Shown here: in pieces, positions 2,292-31,016 of the stretch
Position numbering within the stretch: position 1 is the first letter of the stretch
Layout of the letters: each line of letters begins with the position of its first letter
Origin: Colwellia sp.
GTDB taxonomy: Bacteria > Pseudomonadota > Gammaproteobacteria > Enterobacterales > Alteromonadaceae
Direction of reading: 5' to 3'
Length of the DNA: 40,616 nt
NCBI GenBank assembly: GCA_016745015.1
Contig: JADGDH010000012.1
Coordinates: 1-40,616, forward strand
Position numbers and translations under genes: made by a program
The notes under the pieces: generated by a model
Database searches by the model: none
What the model saw: the letters and a program-made list of their open reading frames with translations, nothing else
Told to the model about the DNA's origin: nothing

Positions 2292-3830
2292 CTAAATACT
2301 ACTTCTACCTTTACGAATATATTGCAAGACTCCCGTTATTGTTATAATTAACAGTGACAAGGAAACTGCCAATAATAAAAGTAAATAGAATGAGCCAATA
2401 TAATTTTGAAAAATACGCAGATTATGTAGTTCAAAGAAAAAATTCCATAACGCCATTCTGGCCTCACTATTAATGCTATCAGGCATTGTTGAGAAAACTT
2501 TTGATTGATCAAAAAGCTTTCCTTTAAAGAAATCAAAAACAACTAAGCCAGATTCATTTTGACAAGCTGCAACAGGTAAAATACCTTTTGTTTCTTCGGG
2601 TAAAACAATGGCCTCGTATCTATCATGTTCTTCTTGCCATACAAATAAGCCACTAAATGAGCCTACTAAAATATTACCGTCTGTTTGTTGCTGAAATATA
2701 GTTGCTCCCATACCATGTACTGGCACAGAGAATTTAATTTGTTCAAACCTAGCTGTATTTAAATTACCTGAGAAAACGCCATCATCAGTTAAGAGTACTA
2801 ATTTATTTTCAATGAATGCGGCTTTAGTTATTTTGTAGGGAATATTGTTCGTAGCATGACTTGCGTAGACGTCAATGGGTGAATTACCTGCAACAATCAA
2901 CAAAAGCCCCGGTGGTCTCATAACGGCTGCTGTAGCAGCACTAATAATAAGCAAAGGTGCTAATATAAATCCCCAACTATTATGATTTTTTGCTAACCAG
3001 CGAAAAGCTCTACCTCCTTTTATTTGTTGCCTTTTTGAAAGTAATTTTTTACGAACAATTTTAGGGAACAACCAATAATATAAACCGCTTAAACAAAAAT
3101 AAATTAATGATAGCGCAACAAAATCCATTAATAATATGCCTGTAATCCCTAAGAGTTCACCACTATGCAAAGCAAAAATAAAGCGAAAAAAAGGTACCGC
3201 TTGTGAAGATTTTTCCAAAGTAACAACAAGCTCTGTTACTTTGTTAAATGCATTATCAGTTACATTGTTGTTTGCTGTTACCTCAATGGTAAATATATGA
3301 TGATTAGCTATCGCAATAATAGTGTCTGAGTGGTCATTTTTAACAATCGAGACAATACGTTTATCACGCGTTTGTACATAATAGTGCCACTGCTGCGTTT
3401 CGGCTTGGTAGCGGTATAAACCATCACGGCTACCCACAAAAAGTTGTTTAGTGTTCTTATCGTAATAGAGGCTATAAATAAAATTCTGCCAATTATTTAT
3501 TGCTAGGGGATTATCAATCTGTTGATATGAACCATCAATAAAATAACCTAAACCATTTTTACCCGCAGCGTATATTCCTCCTCTTTCATCTTTGGCTAAG
3601 GTTTGTATTACGCCTCTATTCCACTGCTTAAAATGATAATTTTCAGGTAGGCTGCTAATAGGTAGAGAAATATTTTTAATAATATTTGGATGATTTAACC
3701 CCATACCACTAAGAGCAATAAAAAGAAATATAGGTAAAAAAATAAGACTTAATATTTTATGGAGTTTACTTGCTAACTTGCTTTTTAGTTTGTTTTTTTT
3801 AATTTTCTTTGATTCGATTGTTTTTTTCAT
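2292..3830 (-). CDS. PepSY-associated TM protein with an embedded propeller-like periplasmic region
   Basis: 512 aa; N-terminal TM (LSLIFLPIFLFIALSGMGLN), HSGELLG motif, C-terminal TM; located downstream of a TonB receptor. Confidence 0.7.
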   Translation of the reverse strand: MKKTIESKKIKKNKLKSKLASKLHKILSLIFLPIFLFIALSGMGLNHPNIIKNISLPISSLPENYHFKQWNRGVIQTLAKDERGGIYAAGKNGLGYFIDGSYQQIDNPLAINNWQNFIYSLYYDKNTKQLFVGSRDGLYRYQAETQQWHYYVQTRDKRIVSIVKNDHSDTIIAIANHHIFTIEVTANNNVTDNAFNKVTELVVTLEKSSQAVPFFRFIFALHSGELLGITGILLMDFVALSLIYFCLSGLYYWLFPKIVRKKLLSKRQQIKGGRAFRWLAKNHNSWGFILAPLLIISAATAAVMRPPGLLLIVAGNSPIDVYASHATNNIPYKITKAAFIENKLVLLTDDGVFSGNLNTARFEQIKFSVPVHGMGATIFQQQTDGNILVGSFSGLFVWQEEHDRYEAIVLPEETKGILPVAACQNESGLVVFDFFKGKLFDQSKVFSTMPDSINSEARMALWNFFFELHNLRIFQNYIGSFYLLLLLAVSLSLLIITITGVLQYIRKGRSSI

Positions 3831-27644: not shown

Positions 27645-28232
27645 TTACTTTTTTGATTCTAAGAACTCAATCACATCTTCATTTTGTACTCGATCGTAAA
27701 TATCTTCGACTGATAATGTTAAATTGATTGATTCAAAATGTATTTCATCCTCTAAAAAGTAATGTTTTGAATGCCAATCGTCACTTTTACGGTAAACGGT
27801 TATATCAACAACATCTTGCTCAATAATGACATACTCTTGTAGGGTTGGAATATTGATATACTCTAAAAGCTTATCTCGTTCATCAATTTTACGTGTTGAC
27901 CTAGAGATAACTTCTACAAGTATTACTGGTGTTTGTGTAACATAGCCATTTTCAATAAAATCATTATCACAAACAGCTAAAACATCAGGGTAACGATAAT
28001 TGCCTACAGACGTTTTAACCTTCATGTCTGAAGCGAAAGACCTACAAGAAGAGCTTTTTAAATGCAGGTGAAATGCACTAAAAACATTCCCAGAAATAGT
28101 ATTATGATTCACACTTGCACCAGCCATTGCGTAAACCTGACCATCAACATACTCATGTTTTACTTCACTAATTAATTCACCATTTATATATTCTTCTACC
28201 GTAATAGAATCACTTTTCTTTGCTGTTGCCAT
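27645..28232 (-). CDS. Uma2 family (DUF820) putative restriction-endonuclease-fold protein
   Basis: 195 aa; ELISEVKHEYVDGQVYAMAGAS, RYPDVLAVCDN, PVILVEVISRSTRKIDERDKLLEY. Confidence 0.9.
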   Translation of the reverse strand: MATAKKSDSITVEEYINGELISEVKHEYVDGQVYAMAGASVNHNTISGNVFSAFHLHLKSSSCRSFASDMKVKTSVGNYRYPDVLAVCDNDFIENGYVTQTPVILVEVISRSTRKIDERDKLLEYINIPTLQEYVIIEQDVVDITVYRKSDDWHSKHYFLEDEIHFESINLTLSVEDIYDRVQNEDVIEFLESKK

Positions 28233-28911: not shown

Positions 28912-30003
28912 CTACTTATGGTATGGCTTACTTAAACGATGCACTGACTCAATAAAATGCCCTGCGTGTTCAGGTTTCACATCAGGGTGAATACCATGGC
29001 CTAAGTTAAATACATGCCCAGTACCACCTTGACCAAAGCCTGCTAAAATTTTAGCTACTTCTTGTTCAATACGTGGCAATGGTGCATATAACATTGAAGG
29101 ATCCATATTACCTTGCAAAGCAACCTTATCGCCTACCCGTGCTTTGGCATTTTCAATATCAATAGTCCAATCAAGCCCTACTGCATCACAACCAGTAGCA
29201 GCAATACTTTCTAACCACATACCACCATTTTTAGTAAACAAGGTTACAGGCACTTGACGACCATCAGCATGACGAGTCAAACCATCAACTATTTTTGCCA
29301 TGTATTGTAATGAAAAGTCTTTATAGTCTCGTGGTGATAAAACGCCGCCCCATGTATCAAATACCATTACCGACTGTGCGCCAGCAGCAATTTGCCCGTT
29401 AAGATAGGTAATAACAGAGTCTGCTAACTTATCAAGTAATAGGTGCAAGCTTTGTGGCTCTGAAAACATCATTTTTTTGATTTTAGTAAAAGCTTTAGAG
29501 CTACCACCTTCAATCATATAAGTTGCTAATGTCCATGGACTTCCAGAAAAGCCAATTAACGGTACTTCACCGTTAAGTTCTTTACGAATAGTACGCACAG
29601 CATTCATAACATAACCTAATTCATCTTCAGGATCTGGAATGCCTATTTTTTCAATATCTGCTTTACAGGTAATTGGATTGGTAAACTTAGGGCCTTCGCC
29701 TGTTTCAAAATACAAACCTAAACCCATCGCATCAGGAATAGTTAAGATGTCACTAAATAAAATAGCAGCATCTAATTTAAAACGACGTAAAGGTTGAATA
29801 GTCACTTCACAAGCAAGCTCTGCATTTCGACATACCGACATGAAATCACCTGCATCTTTACGCACTTCACGATATTCAGGTAAATAACGCCCTGCTTGTC
29901 TCATCATCCACACGGGAGTGTAATCTACTGGTTGCTTCAAAAGCGCGCGTAAATAATTATCATTTTTTAATTCTGTCACCAATAAATCCTCTAATTTATT
30001 CAT
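28912..30003 (-). CDS. hemE: Uroporphyrinogen decarboxylase
   Basis: 363 aa; [52 protein letters not shown]. Confidence 0.97.
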
Positions 30004-30265
30004 TGTTACTTACTCGCACTTTCACATATTTAGATAGCAAGCAATTTATGATGCATATTCTAGCACTCGCAGTATTTTGAATCTATGCACAAAATCAATT
30101 CCTTTGGTTCAGCAATATCAAATCAAAAAACAAAAAACATTTCAATTTAGTAACATTTAGTTCTTAATCGTCAATCTATGTAACAATCAGCAACTTAGCT
30201 ATGTGGCATAACAATTAAAACCTTTGTACGAAAGAAATCGTCGAGTTTATGCTCTATTAAAGTTG

Positions 30266-30294
30266 TTGCAGTGGCAAAAATGCTTTGCTATAAA
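30266..30294 (+). promoter_or_regulatory. Candidate sigma70 promoter
   Basis: TTGCAG - 17 bp - TATAAA. Confidence 0.5.
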
Positions 30295-30300
30295 TTACCT

Positions 30301-30421
30301 GCGTTAACAAAGAAGCACTGATTAATAATAATAATACTTCTAAATATAACTAATAAGAATCTTGATTAACAAGACCATAAAGCGAGCATTTCAAGCCTTT
30401 CTCTTTGAGAAAGGCTTTTTT
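30301..30421 (+). ncRNA. Candidate intergenic small RNA (about 120 nt)
   Basis: Promoter-like element, AAU repeats (AATAATAATAAT) and strong Rho-independent terminator with no ORF between. Confidence 0.45.
30393..30421 (+). terminator. Intrinsic terminator
   Basis: AGCCTTTCTC-TTT-GAGAAAGGCT-TTTTT. Confidence 0.88.
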
Positions 30422-30539: not shown

Positions 30540-31016
30540 ATGAATAGTCCACAACGTGATATAACTTTACGATTTTTAGCTGAACCACAAGATGTCAATT
30601 TTGGTGGCAAAGTTCATGGTGGAGCGGTAATGAAATGGATAGATTTAGCCGCGTATGCCTGCGCAGCAGGTTGGAGTGGTCGTTATTGCGTTACCGCTTA
30701 TGCTGGTGGCATCCGTTTTGTCGCCCCTATTCATGTAGGTAGCTTGGTAGAAGTTGAAGCAAAGGTTATTTATACCGGAAAATCCTCAATGCATATTGCG
30801 TTAGAGGTAAATGCCTGTGATCCTAAATCATTAAACCGTCGCTTAACTACTCACTGCATTGTTATTATGGTAGCGGTAGATCAAAATGGTCAATCAGAAC
30901 GCATACCGCAGTGGGTTCCTGAAAGCGATGCTGATCTAAAGCAACACGCCAGTGCCGTAAAGCTAATGGATATGCGCAAACAAATTGGCGAAGAGATGCA
31001 AATTTTTGTTGAATAA
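30540..31016 (+). CDS. Acyl-CoA thioesterase (YciA-like hotdog)
   Basis: 158 aa; FGGKVHGGAVMKWIDLAAYACA, VGSLVEVEAKVIYTGKSSMHIALEV. Confidence 0.88.
   Translation: MNSPQRDITLRFLAEPQDVNFGGKVHGGAVMKWIDLAAYACAAGWSGRYCVTAYAGGIRFVAPIHVGSLVEVEAKVIYTGKSSMHIALEVNACDPKSLNRRLTTHCIVIMVAVDQNGQSERIPQWVPESDADLKQHASAVKLMDMRKQIGEEMQIFVE

Follow-up and report, generated by a model that had tools for sequence, protein, structure and literature searches.

A conserved small RNA gene, most likely of the Hfq type, divergent from hemE in Colwellia and related Gammaproteobacteria

The stretch of DNA analysed here, which we call the window, comprises 40,616 nt of Colwellia sp. (assembly GCA_016745015.1, contig JADGDH010000012.1, positions 1 to 40,616, forward strand) and carries, between two protein-coding genes, a locus predicted to encode a small RNA of ~121 nt on the plus strand (30301..30421) from its conservation, its signals and the lack of an ORF. 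Its divergent neighbour on the minus strand is hemE, the gene for uroporphyrinogen decarboxylase (28912..30003; TIGR01464, 465.7 bits), while the next plus-strand gene encodes a hotdog thioesterase (30540..31016; 4HBT, 64.4 bits); an ORF resembling the Uma2 type (DUF820) was also seen by eye at 27645-28232, between a metJ-like gene and hemE. The small RNA is preceded on its own strand by a sigma-70-like promoter that is conserved in relatives (30266..30294), whose TTGCAG (30266-30271) and TATAAA (30289-30294) elements can be read from the window sequence with a 17-bp spacer between them. Upstream of the promoter lies a plus-strand box, TACGAA-N4-TCGTCGAGTTTATGCTCTATTAAAG (30228..30264), which is conserved across Colwellia and recurs in many group-1 relatives. 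Its pattern occurs just once in each of eight genomes when up to one mismatch is allowed, and the box is possibly an activator site or an upstream promoter element. Transcription would start 7 nt past the -10 hexamer, run away from hemE and stop at the RNA's own terminator, the T run of which was taken as the 3' end.

Several parts, all on the plus strand, can be distinguished within the predicted transcript. The 5' end, GCGUUAACA (30301..30309), is the counterpart of a family-wide 5' motif, GCGCUAG, and has diverged in the window; it is followed by a variable A-rich tract (30312..30343), which contains the AAU repeats AATAATAATAAT (30324-30335) and which a weak hairpin, AGAAG/CUUCU, is predicted to hold in its loop. 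Just 5' of hairpin 1 stand the conserved ARN triplets AAUAAGAAU (30352..30360), which are invariant or nearly so in Colwellia and have AAGAAG as their counterpart in most of the family. Hairpin 1 itself (30361..30373), with a CUUG/CAAG stem and an AUUAA loop, is supported by covariation, and gives way to a conserved single-stranded stretch, ACCAUAAAGCGAGCAUUUC (30374..30392), in which GCGAG and its neighbours are invariant or nearly so in Colwellia. The end of this conserved core, GCGAGCAUUU (30382-30391), is likely to be the seed of the small RNA and in the folding prediction for the window RNA has a mean unpaired probability of 0.78. An intrinsic terminator (30393..30421), detected by terminator scan, folding and covariation, closes the element with a stem of 30393-30403 and 30407-30417, a TTT loop and a T run reaching 30421.

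The promoter, the AAU stretch and the terminator that a first-pass annotation had pointed out in the window are thus all where it placed them, and its remark that the terminator has no upstream plus-strand gene to serve is borne out by the orientation of hemE. Some of these signals do not rise above chance when taken alone: the promoter is absent from the list returned by a simple scan, which found 7 promoter-like sites in the region where shuffles gave 6.7, and the AAU run of the window amounts to 4 ARN triplets (p = 0.22 in dinucleotide shuffles). The terminator of the small RNA is the strongest of the region, where 5 terminator-like sites were found against 1.2 expected, and the predicted window RNA folds better than its shuffles (z = -2.9). 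As a whole, the locus stands well above chance because it is conserved, with compensatory changes.

All 37 Colwellia genomes examined by DNA search contain the element, the copy in G026 being partial, a promoter match at a contig end. Every one of these genomes has hemE as the divergent neighbour of the element, and only some of them have the thioesterase nearby. In each of the 36 genomes with an alignable complete element, the promoter, hairpin 1, the core and the terminator have been preserved. The alignment falls into three parts: the box and promoter, which are conserved, an A-rich tract that varies, and a 3' block that is again conserved. This block, ~76 nt in length, comprises hairpin 1, the terminator and, between them, the core GCGAGCAUUU; it reaches 93% mean column identity, and its flanks are unalignable. 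Both helices have changed in a compensatory manner within the genus (10 cells), as illustrated by the replacement of CTTG/CAAG by CTAG/CTAG in hairpin 1 and of AU by GC in the terminator. The stretch between promoter and core, on the other hand, varies in length (33-138 nt); the A-rich tract of loci L016 and L018-L036 was seen to contain AAAAAT and AACAACAAAAAT in repeat-like expansions, together with extra TAGCTA inverted repeats.

Beyond the genus, a covariance model (R1) gives matches in 146 of the 399 genomes of the family, which spread over 38 of the 52 genera sampled, hemE being the divergent neighbour in almost all of the 40 family loci that were fetched, including matches with E near 0.01. 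The promoter, retained in all aligned Colwellia, persists as TTGCA/TATAA in most relatives, and most of them likewise keep the terminator. The check for covariation in related genera that the first-pass annotation had called for yielded compensatory changes in both hairpins: 50 sequences from across the family contain 113 compensatory cells as against 26 in shuffles, with none of 500 shuffles reaching 113, although the pair counts lean somewhat towards the model's structure, to which the alignment (A3) was fitted. The third pair of hairpin 1 alone occurs as UA in 20, AU in 15 and CG in 13 of these sequences. Two sub-types, differing in their cores, can be told apart among the family copies. 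Two copies, each with its own promoter-like box, were observed in tandem in one genome (L076:2502-2574 and 3006-3078) and, ~20 kb apart, on contig 42 of G161 (L084, L091).

Short full-length forms, among them three RNAs from between tex and dsbB, were the basis of a further model, R3, which was searched against the order, whose other families we denote by anonymous labels (f2, f4, f6, f7, f13, f14, f20 and f21). It matches in genomes of f6, where the context is hemE and an rsd-like gene, of f20, where it is hemE, and of f4, f7, f13 and f14, where the RNA lies between tex and dsbB (neighbours named by eye). The RNAs of these six families share TTGC..TATAA, a 5' GCGCTAGC or near variant, and an AAGAAGC-hairpin, and because they have this layout in common with the hemE RNAs, the tex-dsbB RNAs are likely homologous to them. 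Most of the RNAs beside tex-like and dsbB-like genes at L112, L113, L116, L241, L242, L247 and L248 contain CTGCAGACTGGAAA in a conserved core of their own. The matches in f2 proved false, the model having picked up a terminator that follows an rpmA-like ribosomal gene, and those at L117-L120, L122, L125, L244 and L245 look like chance terminators. In a genome of f21 (L185), the gap between a nudC-like gene and hemE holds, at ~2560-2890, a same-strand hairpin and terminator without the AAGAAGC motif, possibly an unrelated or diverged small RNA. As to specificity, when a class sample of 274 genomes was searched, a single weak match (E 0.007) came from outside the order; a plasmid search gave no match.

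As read from these comparisons, the locus is a conserved gene with a conserved structure and terminator, without an ORF and without a conserved downstream gene. In sequence terms it is an independent short transcription unit with its own promoter and intrinsic terminator, and it is non-coding, with two covarying helices; its predicted fold would consist of a short hairpin, a single-stranded conserved core ending in GCGAGCAUUU, and the terminator. No closed ORF exists in the RNA predicted for the window, and 74 copies give a median of 0 codons, in agreement with the first-pass view that no credible ORF is present. The place assigned to the gene by that annotation, between hemE and a thioesterase gene, is better given as beside hemE, as the thioesterase lies downstream in just 8 of 72 loci. 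The conserved promoter and terminator, the covariation, the lack of an ORF and the variable downstream gene together strongly support its proposal of a stand-alone small RNA gene. We consider it highly probable that this gene acts in trans, most likely via Hfq, with the core presumably pairing with other RNAs.

That the element might instead regulate hemE in cis, either by way of the divergently oriented RNA or via the conserved box, is suggested by an adjacency that is maintained over most of the family and also in f6 and f20; we nonetheless hold this to be unlikely, since the RNA lies clear of the hemE coding sequence, its predicted pairing with the start region of hemE, which was rejected as a target, is no better than shuffles (6 genomes, z -1.7 to 0.3), and the likely homologous RNAs of f4, f7, f13 and f14 do not reside at hemE. 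The upstream box could still affect both promoters, hemE's included. An iron or heme response, which the first-pass annotation had put forward for testing, gains no support from the pairing predictions or from inspection by eye, which revealed no Fur-type site, and the link to heme is further weakened by the likely homologues located at tex-dsbB in other families.

A function in titrating a protein rather than in pairing, as a Csr/Rsm-type RNA, a 6S-type RNA or an Hfq sponge, appears distinctly improbable. The RNA is short, structured and conserved, and where the ARN tract is long, as in some species, it could serve to load or titrate Hfq; stand-alone intergenic Csr-type small RNAs are known from Alteromonas and Pseudoalteromonas (Aln1a-c, Pf1-3; PMC5864184, PMC9927453, PMC11882849). 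However, those RNAs carry many GGA motifs, whereas the predicted window RNA has none and likewise lacks both a long bulged helix of the 6S type and an Rfam match, and the strongest constraint falls on the single-stranded core, as expected for pairing. Very little probability attaches to a 5' leader or attenuator, whose terminator would stop or pass transcription of the downstream gene according to a signal. The layout in the window, with a promoter, a terminator ~120 nt on and a plus-strand gene further on, would suit such a device, but nothing resembling an alternative antiterminator is evident, the fold that has support amounting to one small hairpin and a terminator, and a leader is contradicted by the downstream gene, which varies in kind and strand: it falls into 25 unrelated clusters over 72 loci, lies on the opposite strand in many and is a convergent nudC-like gene in 14. 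A short peptide, for which nothing speaks beyond the transcription-like signals, is practically discounted by the same lack of ORFs and by a tract length that varies freely.

A gene for Hfq is present in the host (PF17209, 101.3 bits, in G000 as well as three other Colwellia), and its product in the window genome is very like E. coli Hfq. The longest ARN run averages 6.2 triplets in the predicted family RNAs as compared with 3.4 in dinucleotide shuffles, and the U-rich tail of the small RNA is conserved; on account of these three observations the Hfq-type assignment made in the first reading is supported, if indirectly. ARN runs extend to 21 consecutive triplets in one Colwellia, many long forms reaching p < 0.01, and comprise 2-4 triplets in many short-form relatives, with 4 in the window copy, where the AAU run would not by itself sustain the Hfq assignment, so that distal-face binding is not equally clear everywhere; the A-rich tract is a candidate distal-face site. 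In such an arrangement the U-rich 3' end would sit on the proximal face of Hfq, and its distal face would take up ARN triplets, both those preceding hairpin 1 and those of the A-rich tract. We propose Hfq-aided pairing, with tract length as a lineage-specific extra, because class II small RNAs bind both the proximal and the distal face (MgrR: PMC6239178).

As for the RNAs with which the core would base-pair, exact core complements were inspected in four genomes, and two of them, from two species, occupy corresponding positions in the 3' UTR of a gene that we call sp. This gene encodes a fast-evolving exported protein of ~95 aa belonging to no Pfam or NCBIfam family, and is divergent from gcvA (NF008352, 453.8 bits) and convergent with kdsA. 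The site was picked post hoc from ~40 exact complement sites in the four genomes; it was followed by a pattern search and then by a walk from kdsA that is independent of the site. A perfect core complement of 10-11 nt is found in the sp 3' UTR in 21 of the 24 genomes with sp beside kdsA: 20 of the 24 loci have it as AAATGCTCGC(A), and G001 has a 10 nt complement, AATGCTCGCA, after one change. It is missing in three (G012, where the core itself has changed, G028 and G026). The window's own genome has other neighbours around kdsA, and no sp site was found there. The flanks of the site differ between sub-groups and AAATGCTCGCACATT is constant; this sequence was noted in the sp 3' UTR of L250, L254, L255, L257-L260, L263-L265, L267-L269, L271, L272, L275 and L277. 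Predicted duplexes between core and site have energies of ~ -16 to -18 kcal/mol, and the conserved 15-mer at the site is longer than the paired part. The sp 3' UTR site AAAUGCUCGC(A) is thus a candidate pairing partner of the core in Colwellia, backed by its conservation.

The remaining exact 10-mer complements in the four genomes lie mostly inside or antisense to ORFs, five of those in G011 being copies of one repeat, and none constitutes a convincing start-codon target. Across 12 genomes, core complements number ~155 as against ~55 in a backward-read control, an excess that codon use can explain. Other candidates were discarded: anti-Shine-Dalgarno targets for the second sub-type (6 matches in 16 genomes, shared only within one same-genus pair), a similarity of the core to the gcvA coding sequence at ALRAF codons, which vary between species, and AGTTGCTCGCACATTTA sites, which are within coding sequence. 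In two close genomes, G024 and G033 (L252:1501-1517 and L266:1501-1517), AAATGCTCGCARCTTTA occurs near a tatD-like gene, within a conserved non-coding stretch with terminator-like hairpins, which may represent another small RNA with complementarity to this core.

The small RNA matches no Rfam 15 family at the gathering cut-off, whether in the window, in 20 family loci or in 14 further loci. RprA (RF00034) gives a sub-threshold match of 21.3 bits (E-value 7.9), far below its gathering score of 70 and derived mainly from the terminator; matches to EF3314_EF3315, PyrR, isrJ and suhB/mmgR are likewise far below their cut-offs, and sub-threshold matches follow the terminator. ChiX of E. coli is an Hfq class II small RNA. 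Together with MgrR it resembles the Colwellia RNA in being a short independent gene with a U-rich terminator end that is preceded, on its 5' side, by an A-rich ARN/AAN tract (MgrR: PMC6239178). The Colwellia RNA differs from both in core and genomic place, has no sequence or Rfam match with them, and carries a variable tract, in some genomes far longer (<=21 consecutive ARN triplets), with Hfq binding predicted. In E. coli, GcvB adjoins gcvA divergently, and pieces of 3' UTRs can be sponges, as SroC is of GcvB. The candidate partner sp is similarly divergent from gcvA; yet sp is a protein-coding mRNA with a site in its 3' UTR, the small RNA itself is at hemE, and the gcvA loci show no GcvB match up to E = 1.

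A transcription start site study of Alteromonas reports 127 chromosomal sRNAs (PMC5864184); in the literature compared, no small RNA at hemE was found described. We regard the locus as representing a real, conserved and uncatalogued small RNA family whose members are, on sequence grounds, most likely Hfq-type and trans-acting. The fuller picture of a widespread marine gammaproteobacterial small RNA that combines a microsatellite-like expanded distal-face tract, spanning more than one Hfq hexamer, with a gcvA-linked 3' UTR sponge or target is offered tentatively, and we find it rather doubtful.

These findings provide a covariance model that finds the family with little background outside the order, and the conserved core together with the candidate 3' UTR partner near gcvA makes function directly testable. 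The tracts, which range naturally from a few ARN triplets up to 21, likewise offer a way to ask how length sets Hfq loading. More generally, they point to a widespread, uncatalogued small RNA family for marine bacteria, a group with few Hfq-type small RNAs studied to date.
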